DNA from: Oscillospiraceae bacterium
GTDB taxonomy: Bacteria > Bacillota > Clostridia > Oscillospirales > JAAYXM01
Assembly (NCBI GenBank): GCA_015068085.1
Contig: SVLF01000020.1
Coordinates: 1 to 43,034 of the forward strand
Direction: 5' to 3'
DNA length: 43,034 nt
The translations under genes and the position numbers were made by a program. The notes under the pieces are model-generated. The model was not told where the DNA came from, searched no databases, and worked only from the letters and a program-made list of their open reading frames with translations. Shown one piece after another: positions 2,989-28,745 of this stretch. Position 1 is the stretch's first letter; each line of letters starts with the position of its first letter.

Positions 2989-3071
2989 GCGGGCGTGGTG
3001 GAATGGCAGACACGCTGGTCTTAGGAGCCAGTGTCTTCGACGTGTGGGTTCAAGTCCCACCGCCCGCACCA
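2989..3071 (+). tRNA. tRNA-Leu (anticodon UAG)
   Basis: A class II tRNA with a seven-base acceptor stem (GCGGGCG pairing with CGCCCGC), an anticodon loop CTTAGGA giving anticodon TAG, a long variable arm around GTCTTCGAC, a TTCAAGT T-loop region and an encoded 3' CCA at 3069-3071. It reads CUA leucine codons. It lies 22 bases after recR and is followed at once by a strong terminator, so it may be co-transcribed with the dnaX operon. Confidence 0.97.
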
Positions 3072-3105
3072 GAAAAAGCGACTTGTTTCGACAAGTCGCT
3101 TTTTC
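3072..3105 (+). terminator. Intrinsic terminator after tRNA-Leu
   Basis: A 14-bp perfect stem (GAAAAAGCGACTTG at 3072-3085 and its complement at 3092-3105) encloses a TTTCGA loop. The right arm ends in five T residues. It ends the recR/tRNA transcript. Confidence 0.9.
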
Positions 3106-3273
3106 AATGAAATTTGCCTTTGGCAAGTGAAATAGCTTCGCTATGAAATACACGTTGTGTATGAAATATTGCTATGCAATATGAAAAGGCAAATTTTATT
3201 TCACATTTTTCTGTAAGAAAAATATTTCATAATCCGTCAGGATTATTTCATATCAACGAAGTTGATATTTCAT
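3106..3273. repeat. Ordered array of seven small hairpins with mirror-symmetric spacers
   Basis: Left half: four hairpins, each preceded by TGAAAT or ATGAAAT. They are TTGCC/GGCAA at 3114-3126, AGC/GCT at 3134-3142, ACAC/GTGT at 3150-3160 and ATTGC/GCAAT at 3168-3180. Centre: GGCAAATTT then TATTTCA (about 3188-3203), complementary to the left end. Right half: three hairpins, each followed by ATTTCAT. They are an 8-bp stem at 3205-3223, AATCC/GGATT at 3231-3244 and ATCAAC/GTTGAT at 3252-3266. Most loops are 3-4 bases. Because the spacers of the two halves are complementary, the RNA could fold as one long stem with side hairpins. No ORF is credible here. Bases 3274-3323 show no further structure. 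Confidence 0.85.
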
Positions 3274-3323: not shown

Positions 3324-4490
3324 TCACAGTCCATTCCTGTCAATTACGGGTTTTACGATAAAGCTTGTATCAAGTGCTGAAACCGCGGTTATAACCATTG
3401 CGGATACCGTGTCATCCGGTGCAGGATAATCTATGGGAATTACAACGTCAAACAGAATGTTTTTAAAATCGCCGCTCGGGACAATGCGGAAATCGTGCAT
3501 GGAAAACGAGCTGTCAAGCTTTCTTAACGCACCGTAAACATCATCGCGGATGCGGCAAACCTCCTCGTTTTCCACTTCGAGAGGATCCATATGTATGAGG
3601 ATTTCTATTCCGAGTTTTTTTGAAACCTCACTCTCAATAAGGTCAATAAGACCATGGCTGTCCATAATATTTTCTGTTGAAGAAACCTCTGCGTGGAGAG
3701 AAGCGAAAATCCGCCCCGGACCGTATTCGTGCACGATAAGGTCGTGTATCCCGAGAATTTTGTCGTAGCCGAGAATTTCATCGTGGATGTTCTTTACAAG
3801 CTCCGGATCCGGCGCCGTTCCGAGAAGCGGCGTGAGCGTGTCACGGACAATGCCTATTCCCGCCCACATAACAAGCAGGCTTACGAGAATGCCTATGTAT
3901 CCGTCGACTGGGAGAGTTGTAAATTTAGCGGCGATTATAGAAATGAGCGTAACTCCGGTTGCGAGCGCGTCGGAAAGACTGTCTGCAGAAACGGCTTCCA
4001 TTGCGGATGAGTTGATTTTTTTACCGAGCGTTTTATTGAAAACGCTCATCCAAAGCTTTACGCAGACTGAGAGGAACAGACCGAAAACGACAAACGGTGA
4101 AAAAGTTGCGCTCGCACCGCTCGTAATGCGACTAACGGATGTTTTTCCAAGCTCAAAGCCAACAAGAAGAACAAGAAAGGCGATGACGAGCGCGCAGATG
4201 TATTCTATTCTTCCGTGACCGAAGGGATGCTCGCGGTCTGCGGGCTTTGATGAGAGCTTAAAGCCAACGAGCGTTACAACGCTTGACGCGCTGTCGGATA
4301 AGTTGTTGGCGGCATCTGCAGTTACGGCGATACTGTGTGAAAGAATGCCGAGAATAAATTTGAGAACGGCAAGAAACAGATTACAGACAATTCCAACCGT
4401 GCTTGAAACTACGCCGTAGCGTGTGCGCACGGCAGGATTCCCCGTGTTCTCAGCATCTTTAATAAAAAGCCTTGTTATAAGTTTTGTCAT
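3324..4490 (-). CDS. Cation diffusion facilitator (CDF) family transporter
   Basis: A membrane antiporter expected to export divalent metals such as Zn, Mn or Fe in exchange for protons. The 388-aa product has hydrophobic segments around residues 25-50, 70-80, 98-115, 130-150, 175-190 and 200-215. Family metal-site residues are visible as DAANNLSD (Asp59 and Asp66), and the HPFGHGRIE motif (His88, His92) follows. The cytoplasmic C-terminal domain (about 225-310) is followed by an extra ~80 residues resembling a second copy of that ferredoxin-like fold. An AAGGA ribosome site lies upstream. It is last in the four-gene minus-strand operon, 20 bases after the deacetylase. The metal specificity cannot be read from the sequence. 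Confidence 0.93.
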   Translation of the reverse strand: MTKLITRLFIKDAENTGNPAVRTRYGVVSSTVGIVCNLFLAVLKFILGILSHSIAVTADAANNLSDSASSVVTLVGFKLSSKPADREHPFGHGRIEYICALVIAFLVLLVGFELGKTSVSRITSGASATFSPFVVFGLFLSVCVKLWMSVFNKTLGKKINSSAMEAVSADSLSDALATGVTLISIIAAKFTTLPVDGYIGILVSLLVMWAGIGIVRDTLTPLLGTAPDPELVKNIHDEILGYDKILGIHDLIVHEYGPGRIFASLHAEVSSTENIMDSHGLIDLIESEVSKKLGIEILIHMDPLEVENEEVCRIRDDVYGALRKLDSSFSMHDFRIVPSGDFKNILFDVVIPIDYPAPDDTVSAMVITAVSALDTSFIVKPVIDRNGL

Positions 4491-19181: not shown

Positions 19182-22100
19182 ATGAAAAAATTCTTGGCAA
19201 TCATTCTCGCAATAGCTATGTGCATAACTTTATTCCCTGCTGCGTATGCAGAGGGTGGGTCCACAACAGATGCAGGTGGATATGAGTATGTATTCACAAG
19301 TGCTGCATATGGAGAAGAAACGGATATAGGTAGGGCTGCTCTCGCCGAAAAAGCACTGACTGACATATCCGCTTCTGCTTCTGCCCCATGGAGAGGTATA
19401 GGAACATACTATATCGATAATCTAAATTTGAAAAAAAGTGCTCTTGAGTTTAACGCGACCAGCAATCGTATAGCAACTACGCGTGTTATTTTTGAGGTTT
19501 CAGTCCCGGATGGAGGAAAATATATTCCAAAGCTTACCTATACAGCAAAGGAAACTTCTCCGATTGTCGATGTTTACCTTGGCGAGAAACCGGATAATGA
19601 TACAGTATTTACTTTTGCCGATACTGATTGGAATACATATAATTATGTACAGAATGTTCTGACAGCAGACGAAAAGCTCGGCACTATTGACATGTATCCT
19701 TCTGACGGTGTTGAGGGAACAAAAACCGCAACTTTCGGTGAAAGAACACTCTCAGCAGGCTCGTACTATCTGTGCTTTTATGTTTCAGGGGAAAACAGCC
19801 CTGAGCTCACTACAGACAACACAACTACTTTTGAAGTTTATCTCGAAAGTTTTGAACTTGAGCTTGTTCCCGAAGATAACCTTTTATCTCTTGAGCTTTC
19901 GTCAACCTCGAACTCTGTTAAGGTGAACGAAACCGTAGCCCTTACCGCAACTGCGACGTATTCTTTAAGCGGAGAAAAGGCGTTGAGCGAAGGCGTTGAA
20001 TATGTAAGCTCTGATTCTGCTGTTGCAGAGGTATCAAGTGACGGCGTTATAACCGGTAAGAAACGCGGCACAGCAACAATCACCGCAACGGTTGAGGGGA
20101 CTGAAATATCTTCGTCGGTGGATATCACAGTCACATCAGCGCATGATTATGAGTATGACTTTGCTATTTCTTCGCTTTCCAAAAGTGACACAAGTTTTGG
20201 GTATTCAACACTTAAGACGAAAACTATGGATGACGTGATAACTGCAGTATCAGATCCATGGAAGTGGGCAGGCTTTACATATACACACAATCTTTACAGC
20301 AACGCGGCAGGTATTCAAATGAACATTGCTAAAAATCGGGCGAGCGGAGCGTCTTTTGTTGTGCTGGAGCTTGATGTAAAGAATGGTGGAGAGTATGTGC
20401 CGAGTCTTGTTTATAAAACAGATGGCGGAGCACCAAAAGCTGATGTGTATCTTATAAAGAATGTTGACACGATAGACGACTTTAGTGTTGAAACTACAGG
20501 CGGTGAAGGTAATGCGGCAATAAGCCAGTATGTCGGGAAATGGCAAAATGGTGAGGTTGGCGGATATCAGCTTGCTGATGATGCTGTGTTCTCTGCAACA
20601 GAGGAAACTACAGTTACATTCGATGAGTGCACCCTTGATTCGGACAGCACATATTATCTGATCTTTAATTTCGTGGGCTATGAAGGCGAAGTTACAGACT
20701 ACATTTATTATTACGCAAAAAACTTTACACTGACCGATCCTGATTATATTGTTGCAGATGAGCTTGAATCCATTGAGCTTTCGTCCAATGCAACAACGAT
20801 CGTTGTCGGTAGCGAAATGACGCTTTCTGCAAACGGAATATATACAGTCAGCGGTAAAAAGCCTTTAACGGAAGGTATTGAATATACAAGCTCTGATGAA
20901 GATATTGCAACGGTATCCGCTGGCGGAAGAGTCAAAGGTATTGCAAAAGGAACAGCAAGAATAACGGCAACGCTTTCCGGGACAGATATGTCGGCGTATA
21001 TAGATGTGACCGTTACAGAAAAACCCCGCGCAACCCGTGAGTATAAGTATATGTTTGACAGAAATGCTTATGGCACAACGGCCTCCAATGTATCATGGAC
21101 ACAGCTTGCTGAAAAGACTACGGATGATGTTGTGAACGGCGATGCATGGCGCGGTGCAGGAACATTTTACATAAATAATCTGTATGCAAATGATGAAGGC
21201 TTGTATCTCAATGCCGGAAGCGGCCGTGCAGACAGTGGTGTAGCATATCTTGCCTTTGAATTTGAACTCAATGAGGCCGGTACATTCATACCGATTATAA
21301 GCTATAATGCAGCGCCGAGTGCGCCGATTGTGGATATTTATCTTGTTAAAAAAGCAGAGAATACACCTGCGTTTATATTCACTTCCAACACAACTGGAAG
21401 CATAAATCTGCATAATTATGTAATCGGGCTTGACGATGGGTATAAGCTTGCAAATCTTGATATGTTTGCGGAAACGAAGACTGAGAAAAAACTGATTTTG
21501 CCGGAACGCGAAATTTTGGAAAAAGGAACATATTATCTTATTTTCAGAACAGTAGGAAAAAATAAAAACTTCATTGCGGCGAGCTCCAACCTTTTGGAAA
21601 TGACGATACGTTCTTTCAGCATGAAGCCTCCTGCCGGAGATTTTGACAAAATTACGCTTTCTGTTGATAATCTTATAAATGAAAGTGACCCGATGCCGAA
21701 TATGACGCAGCGTCAGCTTGAGTATAAGCTCTATGACGATGTAGGGATTGAAATTGATGAAATTGATACAGAAAAGCTTTCTGTTACGTTTTCTTCTGAC
21801 AATGAAAACATTGCCTCTGTTTCGGAAACCGGGCTTATTACGGCTGTAAGCAACGGAGAAGTGACGCTGAGAGCCGATGTAACATATGACGGGATAACGA
21901 GAAGTGCAAGGTTTAATCTCGTTGTTGAGCCGGCCGGAAGAAATCTTATGGAAGGCTTGAATGCAGATTTTGAAGCCGACGAATGGGTGTGGGATACTGC
22001 AAACGAGACAAATACAGAAGCCGGGAAGCAGCTTCAACGCACAACAATCGGCGTTATGGAAAAGGACGGCAACGCAGATAACAGGGCACTTGCAGTAAGT

Positions 22101-25100
22101 TTTGACCCGGAATACACGGGAATGAGCGGACCTCCGTCAATTTCCCTTAAAAATGATGGACACCGTGTTGCGGTTGTGCCCGGAAAGCTTTATCAGCTTA
22201 CATTCAAGGTTAAGGATGATTCCGTCTGGGCGGATAATGCCTCTCATCTGAGTATGCTTTTCGACATCTATTCATACATTAATCCTACGGGTACATCGTC
22301 GAGTGCTCTTGCTCTTGCAAACAACAGAAATATGAATTATGCGCTTTCCGATGCATGCAAAGAAAATCATGGGAAGTGGGTAGAGGTTTCGGTCCCTGTT
22401 GCCGCTCCGTTTGAGCACGAACAGGACATCATCTATATCACTCCGAGACTTGACTTCAGAACGGCTACCGACGACAAAGGAAAGGCAGGCTTTGGCGGGA
22501 CTATTTGGATTGATGATTTCGAGCTTCGCGAGGTGGGATACGCAGGCGTTGAGGTTGAGGTGACAGGCGCGCTTGATTCAGGCACGCAATCCGATGTGAC
22601 AATCATCACAAAACCGTATACAACCCTTGGAAGCTATATTTCCATCGGCTCCGAATGGTCACCTGACCGCTTTTTGAAGGTTTCGTCGGGCAACGAATAT
22701 GTTGTAGGAAGCATCGGGGATACAGCGCGCACACAAACTGTTACGAGTAGTGGTATGTTCTTTATGAACACTGCGGCGAAGACGAACGGAATGAACGGAA
22801 ACACCGATATTACTTCGAGCATGACAATTCACGGAATAACGAGGACGGGAACGACTACGGTGACCACCTCGAGGTTTGCGCTCGGATTGCTGTATGCTGA
22901 GGCTAAGGCGAGCTCTCCGACGATTGCGGCGGGAGATAAAACAGCGGTGACCCCGACAGGTTATCTTTCCGACGGCACGGTTGCCGATTTAAACAATGCA
23001 ACTATATTCTATCAAACCTCGACTCCTGATATCGTGTCTGTGGACAAAACAACGGGAGAAGTCATTGGACTCCGTGCAGGGACAGGTAAGATTAACGTAA
23101 GTGTTAATCTGGATGGCAGAATTGCGTCTGATGTTGTTGAGATTAAGGTAACAGACTCTACACCGATTGTCACGGCAACTCTTTGCGGTCCCGATACCGT
23201 TGGGTACCTTCGCGACGAACAGCTGACGATAACCGGTGTAACCGAAGGTGGGTATGCTGCAGATATTAGTGCTTCTGATGTCCGGTGGGTAATATCAAAC
23301 GAAGCGGCTGTGTCTGTTGATAAAAAATACCTTGTTTTCGGTAAGACTTTAGGTGAAACGGCAAAGGTTAAAGCGTTTGTTACTCTCAACGGAGCAACGG
23401 TCGAGACGAATGAAATAACGGTAAAGGTTACCAAAACCGATTTGCGCGATCACTTGATAGATTTCAGAAAAGCAACTGTTTCAAGACCGAAGGATGCAAC
23501 TCTTAAAAGCGACGGCTGGCAGCTTAATCTCGCCGAATCAGCTGCACCGGTAGCAAGCGCAAGATTGAGTACGGACGGAATGCCGATAGAAACATCGGCG
23601 GTGGGACAGAAGGTTGTGCTTGATGTTGATATTCCGTATACCGGCGTCTATCAGATAATTCTGACAGGATATCTCAATAACTATAACACACCGCTTGCAG
23701 ATGTTTACCTTGACGGAATTTATGTCGGAGACTATGTGTTCTACGAAGAAGGAAGAAATTCTGCAACAGAGCCGGAACGTATGAGAACGCTGAGCCTTGA
23801 AAGCGGAAAGCACACCTTTACGTTAATCCCTGTTGAAACGGGGAAAAACAATGAAAATATGATTCTTCAGGAAATCCGATTTAAAGCACGTGAAGAAATG
23901 CCGGAGATAAAGGCTGTTATGGCGGCGCGTAATGAATATGCCGTTGAAATGGAAAGCACGGCAAAGATAGCGGCAGAGGTTCTTACAAGCGATGGCAATT
24001 TCTATAACGGAAGCCCGATGCTTAGCGGGAAGAATGATCCGATTATAACAGTAAGCTATACGAGCCACGATACAAGCATTGCAACGGTCAATGCAGATGG
24101 TACGATAAATGCTGTAAAACCGGGTAAAACAAAAATCACGGTTGTTGCAACAGATGGAAGCACATCTGCAGAAACCACGGTGGATGTTGTTGTGTACGAA
24201 AAAGGCGGAACATTTGCAGGAGAGTTTTCGAAAGCGGAAATAGTTTCCGACAGCTTTGTTATGAGCTTGAAAACTGAAGGGATAAAGCTTTCTGTTAAAG
24301 GCTTTGACGATGCTGGAAACGTCCTTGACCTCAGCGATGCAACAATTTCTTGGGAAAGCTCGGATGAGAGCATTGCAACGGTTGATGCCACGGGAAAGGT
24401 TACCCCTGTTTCTATAGGGACGGCCGATATAACGGCAACTGTCACGCTCGGTGATATCACGGTTACTGGAACGAGAACCGTATCCGTCCGTGCCGGAAAA
24501 ACGGGAAGAACATATTACACGGATGAAATGGTCGCTGCTGCCCGTGAGAACGCAAAAAAATATAGCTGGGCAAAGAATACAGTAAAATCAACCGTTGCCA
24601 GAGCGGATAAATATCTCGGAAATCTTGATATGCTGTATGAGATGATTCCGGGAGAAGGTATTCCGCGCTCAACCACTGTAGGTTACAGAAATGATCCCGA
24701 CCGCTTTTATTGCAAGTATTGCGGTGAAGACCTGTATACAAAGCATGGTATGTATCCGTGGGTTACTAATGTCCTGCAAAGACCGTGGAAGGTGCAGTGT
24801 CCGGATTGCAAGCGCTTATTCCCGACTAATGATTTCGAGAAGCTTTATGAGCTTGGACGTGATGAGCACGGCGTATATAACGAAGCGCTTGCACTCGAGC
24901 GAAACGCAGAGCTTGTTGCAAATGGTGAAAAAGGATATGCAGTAAACGTGTTGTACCCGGAAATCGGTACGGAAAATCACCCTGACACAGTGAGGTTTTC
25001 ATCATGGGAAACAACTGAGGGGTGGGGCGTCGATACCGGTAAGGGCTATGATACCGGGAGAATCTGCTCGAACGGAGTAAAAGAAGTGCATACATACCTT

Positions 25101-28100
25101 GCCTATATTATGCATTGCGGCATTTGGTATAACGTTATGGGTAATGGAGCAAAGGGAGAATTGCACAGCGCAGTGAAAGACCTTTCCCAGGCTTATCTTT
25201 ATACCGGAGATGAGAAATACGGACGAGCGGGGGCTATACTCATTGACAGAATAGCCGATGTTTATCCGGGGTATAATCTCCGCCTTTATTCGCTTGATTA
25301 TGCAAATTCCGACGGCGGTGCAAAGCGAGGAAAGGTTCTCGGAAGTATATGGGAAATCGGAATTCAGCACGACTTTTCTGCTGCGTATGATGCTGTTTTC
25401 CCGATGTATGATGATCCGCAGGTGATTTCTTATTTAAGAGAAAAGGCTGGAAAATTTAACCTTGATAATGATAAGTCTGACCCTGAAAAAATCCGCACGA
25501 ACATAGAAACCGGGCTCTTGCGTGAGATCTACGAAACCGTTTGTACCGGTGATAGTCATGGTAATTTCGGTATGCACCAGTCTGCGCTGGCGGCTGCTGC
25601 CGTAACCCTTGATACACAGCCTGAAACGAATGAGATGATAGACTGGATATTCAGATACAGCGAGCTTACCTCTACAAGCAATACAGGCGGTGAAGTGAAC
25701 CAGAGACTAATCAACGAAGTCAGCCGCGACGGACAAGGAACGGAGTCATCTCCGACGTATAATCGAGGCTGGATAAACAACCTGACGGATGCCGCCGCAA
25801 TTCTTGCAAGATATCCGGAATATGACGGAATGGATATATACGGAAATCCGAAGTATATCGGAATGCTTCAATCTTATCCGTATATGACGATTCTCCGCCG
25901 CGGTGTTCCTCAAATCGGTGACAGTGGAAGCTATGCGGGCTATGGACTGCTTCCTGATGATGACCAGATTATGGTTGACGGATTTAAGTATACGCGTGAG
26001 AAAAATCCGGAAGCAGCAAAAGAGATAGCTCAGCATATGTATTTTGTAAAGGACGGTAATCTTGACGGTATCCATTATGATATATGGACAAGAAATCCGG
26101 AAAGCATTGCGGATGAAGTGGAAGAGATAATAGATACATATGGCGAATGGGATTATGATAAGAGCACCGCGCTTACGGGATACGGCCTTAATATTCTTCG
26201 TGGCGGAACCCTTTATGAGTCAAACGGAACGGACGTTATGCGTGACACTCAGCGAGATTTCTGGATTTACTACGGCGGTGCAAAGTCTCACAGAAAGAAT
26301 GACACACTTACTCTCGGTGTTGATGCGTATGGCATTAGCATAAGCTCGGGACTTGGGTATCCGGAGGATACGGGTTCTGATCCAAACAGAGTGCAGTGGC
26401 AGAATGCAACGCTTTCTCACAACACTGTTGTGGTAAATGAGCAGAATCTTAATCGAAGTGCATACACTCCCAAAACGCTTCATTTCGATGCGAAAAAGGA
26501 TTCCCGCGTGAAACTGATGGATATTGACGTTCCGGGAGCATATACTGCAACCGACGAATACAGAAGAACGGTTGTTATGATAGACTATGATGATGAAATA
26601 TCTTATGGTATTGATTTCTTCAGAGTACTGGGTGGAGATGATCATTTATACTCGTTCCATGTATCGTCTCAGGATAATCCATTACACTCCGATAACCTTA
26701 ACTTTAATCATCAGGAAACCGGAACGTATGCGGGAATAGATGTGCCTTATGGAAAGGACCCGTATACGACAACATCAGCATATACAATTCTTAAATATCC
26801 GAACGGTTACACATGGCTCGATGATATCCATCGTGCTGATAAGCCGGAGAACTCCGAATTCTGGTTGGATTATAAAATTACCGATTTCAGGAAGCTCTCC
26901 AGAAACGGTAAGATGGATGTTCGCCTCAGAATGACCATGGTAAACGACTGGATAGCAGACGAGGTTACCCTTGCTAACGGTATGCCACCGAGAACGAAGG
27001 AAACTCTTGCCGTGTTGGATCACATTGAATATATGCTTGTGCGCCGTAAAGGGCGTGATCTTGATACTCTTTTCACTACGGTTATTGAGCCATATAACGG
27101 TAGTCGGTATATCAAGCATATTGAAGGTATCCCTGTAACGGTTGTAGAAGGCACTCCTGATAAAAATGACAGTGTCAAGGCACTCAAAGTGGAGCTTATC
27201 GACGGAAGATGCGACTATATCGTATATGCACAGAATAATGCAGTGACATATAATGTTGGCGATGTGTTCAGATTCCGCGGATTTGTCGGAGTGTGGACAG
27301 TTGCCGAAAACGGAGAGAATATTTACAGTTATGTAAGCGACGGCGAGATAATAGGAAACGATTCATATATCCGTGAAGGGCTTGATTCGAAGCTTGAAGG
27401 AACTGTTGTTGATTTCCAAAGAGAGCTTTCATTCGATAACTGGGTAGAGGTTGAATTTGACCGCGAAGTAACTCCCGAAGAAGCAGATTCGCTTGCTGAC
27501 AGACTGGTGAACTTTGAGCACAAGGGCGTAGGGAACGCTTCCTTTATAATTAAAGGAGTTACGATGACAAGTGCAACACGCGGCATCATAGACTTCGGGG
27601 GCATAACGCTTATCAACTCTTACGTAGATGCTAAAAACGAAGAATTGGGATACAAGTATGATGTTGATGTGGGCAAGACGTTTGAAATTCCGCTTTCATA
27701 CGAGGAAAATGCTGCGCCTGTCTTCGATGAAGTGAGCGAAAATTTCAGCACTTCTGCCGGAAGCTCAATTTCCGTTAAGGTAAATGCAACTGCAGAGAAC
27801 AACGGAGAGGTAACGTATTCTGCACGAACACTCCCCAGAGGAGCAAGCTTTAATGCTGAAACAGGAATGTTCTCATGGAAACCTGATGCATCGCAGATAG
27901 GAGAAAGCCTTGTGGCAATTGACGCGGTGGATGAATATGGAAGAATAAGCACTCAGTTTTTCACCATAACAGTTTACGGTTCAACAACGTCAAAGCCGTC
28001 GGATGCGACGGAAAACACGGAAACCCCGTCAACCGGAAACGCAGGAAGCTCCGGTGGTGGAGGAGGCGGTGGCGGAGGTGCCGCACCGACCGACAAACCG

Positions 28101-28745
28101 GATGATGAAGCGAGCACCGGAGAAACAGATAAGGCAGAAGATGGCGAAACATCACCCGAGACCTCGGGTGAAACGGATAACATCCGTTTCACCGACATTT
28201 CTAACCACGCATGGGCGGCTGATGCAATAAACAGCCTTGCCGACAGTGGAGTTATTAAGGGTACAAGTGAGAATACCTTCTCGCCTGCAAATAACATCAC
28301 CCGTGCGGATTTTGCACTGTTGCTTGTACGTGCGTTTGAGCTGGAAGCGGACAACACGGAGAACTTTGCAGATGTAAGCGCATCGGACTACTTCGCACCT
28401 GAGCTTGCAGTAGCAAGAAACTATGGTATAATAAGAGGTGTTGGCGACAACAGATTCGCACCGCGGAATACCATCACTCGTCAGGATATGATGGTAATTG
28501 TATATCGGGCACTCGAAGCCTCCCTTGCCCTAAAGGGAGGGGGACCGTCGAATGACGGTGGAGGGATTCTACACTCGCAATACCCCGATTACGACACCGT
28601 CGCTGCCTACGCCCGCGAAGCTGTTTCGGCGCTCGTCGGTGCAGGACTTGTCAACGGCAAAAATGGCAAAATCGCTCCTACGGACTACACCACGCGTGCG
28701 GAGGTTGCAGTGCTTATCAAACGCATACTTGATTTTATAAAATAA
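19182..28745 (+). CDS. Giant secreted multidomain heparinase II/III-like protein with BIG2 and SLH domains
   Basis: A 3187-aa surface protein with a signal peptide (residues 1-23, cut near YAE) and an AGGAGG ribosome site. In order: three copies of an unnamed ~200-aa module (about 33-230, 321-522, 619-820; shared W[RK]-x-G/A-G-x-[FY], NL and DVYL positions) alternating with BIG2-type Ig folds (233-318, 528-613, 823-920). Then a CBM-like beta-sandwich (921-1120), more Ig-like folds (about 1240-1420), a region recalling the module (1421-1570) and two BIG2 domains (1573-1772). The catalytic part follows: a helical toroid with a Cys4 site (Cys1844, 1847, 1873, 1876) and a heparinase-type sandwich from about 2360 with SHRKNDTLTLGVDAYG and SHNTVVVNEQN. 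A putative Ig fold, a Ser/Thr/Gly linker with nine glycines, and three SLH repeats (3003, 3065, 3134) end it. It is likely a wall-anchored polysaccharide lyase; the polymer is unknown. Confidence 0.9.
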   Translation: MKKFLAIILAIAMCITLFPAAYAEGGSTTDAGGYEYVFTSAAYGEETDIGRAALAEKALTDISASASAPWRGIGTYYIDNLNLKKSALEFNATSNRIATTRVIFEVSVPDGGKYIPKLTYTAKETSPIVDVYLGEKPDNDTVFTFADTDWNTYNYVQNVLTADEKLGTIDMYPSDGVEGTKTATFGERTLSAGSYYLCFYVSGENSPELTTDNTTTFEVYLESFELELVPEDNLLSLELSSTSNSVKVNETVALTATATYSLSGEKALSEGVEYVSSDSAVAEVSSDGVITGKKRGTATITATVEGTEISSSVDITVTSAHDYEYDFAISSLSKSDTSFGYSTLKTKTMDDVITAVSDPWKWAGFTYTHNLYSNAAGIQMNIAKNRASGASFVVLELDVKNGGEYVPSLVYKTDGGAPKADVYLIKNVDTIDDFSVETTGGEGNAAISQYVGKWQNGEVGGYQLADDAVFSATEETTVTFDECTLDSDSTYYLIFNFVGYEGEVTDYIYYYAKNFTLTDPDYIVADELESIELSSNATTIVVGSEMTLSANGIYTVSGKKPLTEGIEYTSSDEDIATVSAGGRVKGIAKGTARITATLSGTDMSAYIDVTVTEKPRATREYKYMFDRNAYGTTASNVSWTQLAEKTTDDVVNGDAWRGAGTFYINNLYANDEGLYLNAGSGRADSGVAYLAFEFELNEAGTFIPIISYNAAPSAPIVDIYLVKKAENTPAFIFTSNTTGSINLHNYVIGLDDGYKLANLDMFAETKTEKKLILPEREILEKGTYYLIFRTVGKNKNFIAASSNLLEMTIRSFSMKPPAGDFDKITLSVDNLINESDPMPNMTQRQLEYKLYDDVGIEIDEIDTEKLSVTFSSDNENIASVSETGLITAVSNGEVTLRADVTYDGITRSARFNLVVEPAGRNLMEGLNADFEADEWVWDTANETNTEAGKQLQRTTIGVMEKDGNADNRALAVSFDPEYTGMSGPPSISLKNDGHRVAVVPGKLYQLTFKVKDDSVWADNASHLSMLFDIYSYINPTGTSSSALALANNRNMNYALSDACKENHGKWVEVSVPVAAPFEHEQDIIYITPRLDFRTATDDKGKAGFGGTIWIDDFELREVGYAGVEVEVTGALDSGTQSDVTIITKPYTTLGSYISIGSEWSPDRFLKVSSGNEYVVGSIGDTARTQTVTSSGMFFMNTAAKTNGMNGNTDITSSMTIHGITRTGTTTVTTSRFALGLLYAEAKASSPTIAAGDKTAVTPTGYLSDGTVADLNNATIFYQTSTPDIVSVDKTTGEVIGLRAGTGKINVSVNLDGRIASDVVEIKVTDSTPIVTATLCGPDTVGYLRDEQLTITGVTEGGYAADISASDVRWVISNEAAVSVDKKYLVFGKTLGETAKVKAFVTLNGATVETNEITVKVTKTDLRDHLIDFRKATVSRPKDATLKSDGWQLNLAESAAPVASARLSTDGMPIETSAVGQKVVLDVDIPYTGVYQIILTGYLNNYNTPLADVYLDGIYVGDYVFYEEGRNSATEPERMRTLSLESGKHTFTLIPVETGKNNENMILQEIRFKAREEMPEIKAVMAARNEYAVEMESTAKIAAEVLTSDGNFYNGSPMLSGKNDPIITVSYTSHDTSIATVNADGTINAVKPGKTKITVVATDGSTSAETTVDVVVYEKGGTFAGEFSKAEIVSDSFVMSLKTEGIKLSVKGFDDAGNVLDLSDATISWESSDESIATVDATGKVTPVSIGTADITATVTLGDITVTGTRTVSVRAGKTGRTYYTDEMVAAARENAKKYSWAKNTVKSTVARADKYLGNLDMLYEMIPGEGIPRSTTVGYRNDPDRFYCKYCGEDLYTKHGMYPWVTNVLQRPWKVQCPDCKRLFPTNDFEKLYELGRDEHGVYNEALALERNAELVANGEKGYAVNVLYPEIGTENHPDTVRFSSWETTEGWGVDTGKGYDTGRICSNGVKEVHTYLAYIMHCGIWYNVMGNGAKGELHSAVKDLSQAYLYTGDEKYGRAGAILIDRIADVYPGYNLRLYSLDYANSDGGAKRGKVLGSIWEIGIQHDFSAAYDAVFPMYDDPQVISYLREKAGKFNLDNDKSDPEKIRTNIETGLLREIYETVCTGDSHGNFGMHQSALAAAAVTLDTQPETNEMIDWIFRYSELTSTSNTGGEVNQRLINEVSRDGQGTESSPTYNRGWINNLTDAAAILARYPEYDGMDIYGNPKYIGMLQSYPYMTILRRGVPQIGDSGSYAGYGLLPDDDQIMVDGFKYTREKNPEAAKEIAQHMYFVKDGNLDGIHYDIWTRNPESIADEVEEIIDTYGEWDYDKSTALTGYGLNILRGGTLYESNGTDVMRDTQRDFWIYYGGAKSHRKNDTLTLGVDAYGISISSGLGYPEDTGSDPNRVQWQNATLSHNTVVVNEQNLNRSAYTPKTLHFDAKKDSRVKLMDIDVPGAYTATDEYRRTVVMIDYDDEISYGIDFFRVLGGDDHLYSFHVSSQDNPLHSDNLNFNHQETGTYAGIDVPYGKDPYTTTSAYTILKYPNGYTWLDDIHRADKPENSEFWLDYKITDFRKLSRNGKMDVRLRMTMVNDWIADEVTLANGMPPRTKETLAVLDHIEYMLVRRKGRDLDTLFTTVIEPYNGSRYIKHIEGIPVTVVEGTPDKNDSVKALKVELIDGRCDYIVYAQNNAVTYNVGDVFRFRGFVGVWTVAENGENIYSYVSDGEIIGNDSYIREGLDSKLEGTVVDFQRELSFDNWVEVEFDREVTPEEADSLADRLVNFEHKGVGNASFIIKGVTMTSATRGIIDFGGITLINSYVDAKNEELGYKYDVDVGKTFEIPLSYEENAAPVFDEVSENFSTSAGSSISVKVNATAENNGEVTYSARTLPRGASFNAETGMFSWKPDASQIGESLVAIDAVDEYGRISTQFFTITVYGSTTSKPSDATENTETPSTGNAGSSGGGGGGGGGAAPTDKPDDEASTGETDKAEDGETSPETSGETDNIRFTDISNHAWAADAINSLADSGVIKGTSENTFSPANNITRADFALLLVRAFELEADNTENFADVSASDYFAPELAVARNYGIIRGVGDNRFAPRNTITRQDMMVIVYRALEASLALKGGGPSNDGGGILHSQYPDYDTVAAYAREAVSALVGAGLVNGKNGKIAPTDYTTRAEVAVLIKRILDFIK
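28515..28577 (+). repeat. Double-hairpin palindromic repeat inside the coding sequence
   Basis: Two adjacent hairpins lie in the giant gene: CCTCCCTT/AAGGGAGG (28519-28540, loop GCCCTA) and ACCGTC/GACGGT (28544-28559, loop GAAT), followed by GGAGGGATT. The 63 bases are read in frame as a Gly-rich linker (residues about 3112-3132) between SLH repeats 2 and 3. The composition (purine-rich GGAGGG blocks) differs from the surrounding gene and resembles dispersed intergenic palindromic repeats of Clostridia. Confidence 0.7.

Follow-up and report, generated by a model that had tools for sequence, protein, structure and literature searches.

Neither the Gut-1 RNA (2010) nor the S23/IVP proteins (1993) has, to our knowledge, been assigned a function. 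The REP/BIME elements, associated with the RAYT family of Y1 transposases, are interspersed hairpins with a constant foot sequence that occur in direct and inverted orientation and often 3' of genes, and a four-helix-bundle fold is known from the DGR accessory protein Avd. In PMC2864571 Gut-1 is classed as a probable non-coding RNA, found in the human gut only and from environmental sequences only. The 23S rRNA intervening sequences (IVS) with an S23/IVP ORF combine a PF05635 protein, inverted repeats, association with stable-RNA genes, sporadic occurrence and suspected mobility; they lie inside 23S rRNA helices and are cut from the precursor (PMC4990558). The S23 proteins are homopentamers of four-helix bundles (PMC4990558), and for the IVS it has already been proposed that the IVP ORF serves mobility (Ralph and McClelland 1993, cited in PMC4990558).

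The DNA analysed here (the window) is a contig of 43,034 nucleotides from an Oscillospiraceae genome, in which an array of hairpins lies behind a tRNA-Leu gene. Its features are:

Also in the window: SRP RNA and recR (the name recR taken from relatives)
2989 to 3071, +: tRNA-Leu (UAG) with encoded CCA (ARAGORN, Rfam RF00005); the insertion site, with the element from the next base on
3072 to 3105, +: leader hairpin GAAAAAGCGACTTGT(TTCG)ACAAGTCGCTTTTTC, intrinsic-terminator-like, its first base being the base after the tRNA-Leu CCA
3105 to 3172, +: Rfam Gut-1 match (RF01706) on the left half of the array, 53.8 bits, cut-off 50
3108 to 3126, +: spacer W1 (TGAAAT at 3108) and hairpin 1 (TTGCC/GGCAA), arm 1 of which is able to pair with the centre too
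3128 to 3182, +: hairpins 2 to 4 (ATAGC/GCTAT, ATACAC/GTGTAT, ATATTGC/GCAATAT), each after TGAAAT (3128, 3144, 3162)
3188 to 3203, +: centre GGCAAATTT (3188-3196), the complement of spacer 1 plus arm 1, then the first mirrored spacer ATTTCA (3198)
3205 to 3272, +: hairpins 5 to 7 (ATTTTTCT/AGAAAAAT, ATAATCC/GGATTAT, ATATCAAC/GTTGATAT), with mirrored ATTTCA at 3224, 3245 and 3267
3273 to about 3298, +: conserved short tail TTAAAAACTAAACTGCATCTTTATTG
3324 to 4490, opposite strand: gene called CDF by an earlier, sequence-only reading, convergent to tRNA-Leu

That reading had described seven hairpins spaced by TGAAAT on the left and by ATTTCA on the right, with a centre complementary to the left end. 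Both descriptions were confirmed. Within 3108-3272 there are exactly seven Watson-Crick hairpins (four left and three right) with loops of 3-4 nt, and the centre (3188-3196) and the left end AAATTTGCC (3110-3118) are complementary, a pairing that is used by the predicted fold. Seven hairpins were reached in 1/2000 dinucleotide shuffles, and a mirror score of 7, the array itself scoring 9, in 2/2000. The predicted RNA fold of the array has an energy of -47.3 kcal/mol (z = -4.6 on the + strand and -5.3 on the - strand). The array had also been taken to be neither a CRISPR nor a terminator. A CRISPR is indeed excluded, the repeats being mirrored and the units between them being hairpins themselves, but an eighth hairpin beside the tRNA, the leader, resembles an intrinsic terminator. 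A GC-rich hairpin followed by a U run is present only there (3072-3105), and on inspection of the sequence no U run follows hairpins 1-7 of the window array. The leader hairpin is identical behind six different tRNAs of the window's own genome and carries compensated changes elsewhere. In delimiting the element the sequence-only reading was right about the seven hairpins and overlooked the eighth, the tail and the Gut-1 match; as to context, it missed the exact placement behind CCA and the IVP gene linked to other copies. A full copy at a tRNA site runs in the order CCA, leader hairpin, W spacers with hairpins 1-4, centre, mirrored spacers with hairpins 5-7, and tail. In other copies of the same genome the tail continues to ...TTGTTCTGCCTTGCCA, where similarity ends, and the window copy departs from this common right end shortly before TTGTTCTGCCTTGCCA.

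The Gut-1 model (RF01706) passes its gathering score on the left half of the array (+ strand), and the mirrored half gives a match on the bottom strand of 42.2 bits, under the cut-off. The array had been said to belong to no named family while seeming familiar from Clostridia; the familiarity was right, yet the named family covers hairpins 1-3 only. Spacers and hairpins are alike in that half, but the model stops after hairpin 3 and is without the leader, hairpin 4, the centre, the mirrored half, the tail and the IVP gene, and the spacer words found here include ones that it detects poorly. When the remaining spacer types were compared with Rfam, Gut-1 was the sole family matched. In the window's own genome the Gut-1 model gave 24 matches with E no higher than 10, of which 8 passed the cut-off. 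At E below 0.001 there are about 13 distinct loci, some of them truncated where a contig ends, and besides the window array the genome has about a dozen copies. An array directly follows nine tRNA genes (Ser GCU, Ser GGA, Leu CAA, Leu UAG, Met, Gln, Cys, Lys and Arg CCG), the window's tRNA-Leu included, among 40 tRNA matches. Recurrence in Clostridia also holds, matches over the cut-off being found in 37/98 related genomes, with up to 39 in one genome; these genomes are mostly MAGs, and absence from a draft is weak evidence. On genomic comparison the mirrored array in its full form recurs as a dispersed element, of which the window array is one copy. Gut-1, described as a human-gut-only RNA, appears here as a dispersed element of Clostridia MAGs, many of them ruminant-derived.

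The stems vary between copies in a compensated manner. Arm 1 (TTGCC, ACGCC, CCACCC, CCGTCC, AAATCC, TCGCC, CCGTTCC and others) has two possible pairing partners, the second arm of its hairpin and the centre, and both track its changes in 29/38 copies, a figure from hand-anchored parsing, automated parsing of all arrays being brittle. In hairpins 5-7 entire stems are exchanged between copies within one genome. This compensated variation, with the three-way complementarity of arm 1, its partner and the centre, upholds the earlier proposal that secondary structure is selected both locally, in the hairpins, and over a longer range, in a stem. On the tRNA-sense strand G.T mismatches outnumber A.C mismatches by 18:3 among 425 unique array hairpins (11:1 and 7:2 in the two halves), compared with 130:118 in a flanking-hairpin control (Fisher p 0.003). 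Less stringent settings gave 13:5 and 14:6, and the strand effect is moderate because of the last of these ratios. The bias speaks for a folded sense strand, which could be RNA or single-stranded DNA; because G.T outnumbers A.C on that strand, it is a single sense strand that appears to be folded, probably as RNA. No loop covariation between left and right hairpins was seen in the only 19 arrays parsed, and kissing loops between the two halves were rejected.

Among 98 oriented copies, which are the best-scoring ones and not a random sample, a tRNA or tmRNA was located just upstream in 40, with 16 kinds represented counting tmRNA. The RNA gene is mostly 31-43 nt before the array, and most leader hairpins at these sites begin at the base after CCA. 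Of the copies away from tRNA genes, 31/51 lie at the stop codon of an ORF in the same orientation; for random positions the share is 21%, and the mirrored test gave 11/51. By these counts the element is placed at 3' ends, in the same orientation as the gene before it. At four loci (L063, L317, L318 and L327) the left arm of the leader holds the last codons of the upstream protein gene, so that coding sequence recurs, inverted, in the right arm.

Comparison between congeneric species (MAGs, and not strains) showed that a given tRNA may be followed by one array type in one species and by another type, or by no array, in the next; this was the case for tRNA-Met, Leu(UAG), Cys, Leu(CAA), Ser and Lys. 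Behind tRNA-Met there is a TGAAAT array in G000 (the window's own genome), a 7-mer mirror array in G001 and a GTGATAT array in G002. Behind tRNA-Leu(UAG), the site of the window array, TGAAAT in G000 corresponds to TGATATAC in G004, to no array in G002 and to an insertion in G001 that was judged by eye to be integrase-like. The common sequence downstream of tRNA-Lys resumes about 56 nt behind the tRNA in G002 and about 460 nt behind it in G000. A base-exact empty site with both flanks was not obtained in this congeneric-species comparison. Direct repeats of the tRNA 3' end were sought and were present at 20/181 tRNAs; they belong mostly to another element class and were rejected as a target-site duplication. 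Such a repeat, of 12 nt, was seen in one array element. At L025 (G000:C37, tRNA-Ser GCU) an insert of about 1 kb contains two arrays, one of the TGAAAT type and the second degenerate, together with an ORF of about 149 codons. It closes with 12 nt that repeat the 3' end of the tRNA, and an older TGATGT array comes next.

The S23/IVP ORF (PF05635) is absent from the window copy. In the same genome three of the four IVP loci lie just downstream of an array, the genes adjoining the arrays C103 (frameshifted), C126 and C93. Across 87 IVP loci in public genomes and viral contigs a mirror array was present upstream in 53 and downstream in 2, with 4/435 in shuffles, and a co-oriented tRNA or tmRNA lay upstream of the IVP gene at 37/71 loci, none being opposite-oriented or downstream. 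Gut-1 and IVP co-occur over 59 genomes (odds ratio 23, p 6e-7, Spearman 0.77). The spacer word (TGAAAT, TGATGT, TGATGC, TGAAGT, TGAATTG, TGATATT, GCTAAAT and others) changes 12 times on the IVP tree, the minimum being 9 and the shuffled mean 41.9, and 0/200 shuffles were as low; the classes were assigned by eye, and the tree, being of so short a protein, lacks resolution at many forks. Such co-diversification could be explained by mere co-inheritance. A strong promoter lies between array and gene in 18/49 IVP copies (1.3% in shuffles), and in those 18 the array is therefore outside the IVP mRNA; in others it may be in the mRNA leader, because the gap between array and gene is too short for a promoter. 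Carriage by phages was rejected, only 10 IVP loci being found in 2.9 million viral contigs and 2 in 50,697 phage records. The IVP protein matches the solved structure 2RLD and is like Avd in its four-helix-bundle fold, the S23 proteins being pentamers (PMC4990558); the context of a DGR is unlike that of the arrays, no reverse transcriptase or variable-repeat cassette having been seen adjoining them. No description of the link between Gut-1 or the array and IVP was found among the open-licence papers searched. The element resembles the 23S rRNA IVS in its protein family, inverted repeats, association with stable-RNA genes, sporadic occurrence and suspected mobility, and differs from it in lying behind tRNA, tmRNA and protein genes; the window copy is between tRNA-Leu and the convergent gene at 3324-4490 and not within a 23S rRNA helix. 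The mirrored hairpin array is a feature of the present element and not of the IVS.

The window array is probably a short copy, without the IVP gene, of a mobile element that is linked to IVP and targets the 3' ends of RNA genes. It has the leader, the mirrored array and the re-pairing centre, lies directly behind a 3' end and has its spacer class in common with IVP copies. Dispersal, exact sites, compensated stems, the folding strand and linkage to and co-diversification with IVP can be read directly from the genomes compared, and mobility is probable from the turnover between species. A small element of this kind would insert at RNA-gene 3' ends, mostly right behind the CCA of a tRNA or tmRNA and in the orientation of the upstream gene, and a full copy would comprise the leader, four W hairpins, the re-pairing centre, three mirrored hairpins, the IVP/S23 gene and a short tail. 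The leader hairpin may act as a terminator at tRNA sites. The array would be the structural core, its centre re-pairing with W1 plus arm 1, and would fold as a single strand, probably RNA and possibly single-stranded DNA; a role for RNA at tRNA sites is weakened because the leader should stop tRNA transcripts ahead of the array. The array may further be the recognition module of the 23S_rRNA_IVP/S23 four-helix-bundle protein, which may help the element to move or to persist; short copies, that of the window among them, may be mobilised in trans or be relics. No known recombinase was linked to the arrays, Y1_Tnp being uncorrelated with them and RVT_1 missing in several copy-rich genomes, and an obligate Y1-transposase or reverse-transcriptase partner is disfavoured.

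A bolder proposal, which we regard as possible though rather doubtful, is that the element forms a transposon class of its own, in which S23/IVP would recognise the array by its spacer word and direct insertion to tRNA 3'-CCA without Y1 or reverse transcriptase, Gut-1 and the rRNA IVS being two faces of it. If IVP does read the spacer word, the element would be a small targeting system for tRNA 3' ends that nature has diversified, and how rRNA intervening sequences spread could be tested with the purified protein, about 117 residues long, and a synthetic array. An orphan RNA family is in any case joined to an orphan protein family, because the longer copies of the element carry the S23/IVP gene, and the sequence evidence unites the two in one unit with a defined insertion site.

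It is unlikely that the array is instead a REP/BIME-like structural repeat of 3' ends, serving as a terminator or in RNA 3' protection and passively spread with IVP as incidental cargo. The interspersed hairpins with their constant foot, in both orientations and frequently 3' of genes, do resemble REP/BIME, and the placement at co-oriented 3' ends, the terminator-like leader at tRNA sites and the bias to folding of the sense strand would all suit such a repeat. The fixed 4+3 design, the re-pairing centre and the exact post-CCA placement are unlike REP/BIME, however, and the tight linkage of IVP, its co-diversification with the spacer words and the swapping of array types at the same tRNA between species argue against passive spread; the leader alone would moreover be enough for termination. 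The own genome G000 (88% complete) has 0 matches to the Y1 transposase family PF01797, and across 59 genomes Y1_Tnp is uncorrelated with Gut-1 copies, so that a Y1/RAYT partner was rejected.

An element acting at the DNA level, its mirrored units extruding as cruciforms or single-stranded hairpins that a protein recognises as Y1 transposases do REPs, is quite improbable. This reading is suggested by the loops, which are polar by unit, mostly T-N-C or T-NN-C in the left half and their reverse complements GNA or GNNA in the right, with no clear preference for GNRA over GNYA in the right half (30:27). GNA and GNNA loops form unusually stable DNA mini-hairpins. Against it stand the G.T excess on one strand in both halves, for which purely DNA cruciform recognition was rejected, and the missing and uncorrelated Y1_Tnp. 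The loop pattern and the G.T strand bias point different ways and are not fully reconciled.

That Gut-1 is a free-standing RNA with a host function, as it was seen at discovery, is highly improbable. An Rfam model exists, PMC2864571 lists it as a likely non-coding RNA, and the sense-strand G.T excess would be compatible with an expressed RNA; yet copy number ranges from 0 to 39 inside one order, neither a fixed neighbourhood nor a promoter of its own was seen, the array sits behind a terminator-like hairpin, and the conserved unit extends beyond the 77 nt that are modelled. The case is a caution that what is catalogued as a conserved family of structured RNAs may be a piece of a mobile element.

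The reverse transcriptase of the Mauriceville retroplasmid template-switches to tRNA 3'-CCA. Spread of the element by such a route, with IVP as an Avd-like partner of the enzyme, would account for a junction exactly at the CCA of unrelated tRNAs and tmRNA and for several right ends that read ...GCCA, but is barely credible, RVT_1 being unmatched in the copy-rich, nearly complete genomes G010, G048, G052, G026 and G022, and a Mauriceville-like partner was rejected. A sequence accident, already refuted by the dinucleotide shuffles and the dozens of copies with compensated stems, is a negligible prospect. Neither of the two signs of an accident named by the sequence-only reading, a lack of further copies in the genome and a lack of compensating stem changes, was observed.

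Several other arrangements were seen beside the IVP-linked arrays. A second class of small insert behind tRNAs consists of a terminator, an antisense T-arm-like stretch, a hairpin and a direct repeat (18-30 nt) of the tRNA 3' end with CCA, with an array element behind the second CCA in several loci (class loci L151, L146, L160, L161, L164, L169, L175, L077, L200, L245, L249 and L259). Mirror arrays of 7-mer repeats (ACTTATT, ACTATTC and their reverse complements) with no hairpin units occur at L165, L144, L133, L098, L099 and L179, mostly directly behind CCA and in some copies with an IVP gene; at L165 and L098 their right end, CATTATTGTTCT.CCTTGCCA, is the same as that of the TGAAAT elements. 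The IVP genes at L038, L072, L074 and L075 have no hairpin arrays and are flanked by short tandem words such as TGCAAAA or AATGCAT, on one side or on both sides in inverse orientation. At L016 (G000:C63) a GCGATAT-spaced hairpin array precedes an ORF that by eye looks to be of Bro-N type. Elsewhere in the window, positions 19182-28745 are occupied by one ORF of 3187 codons.
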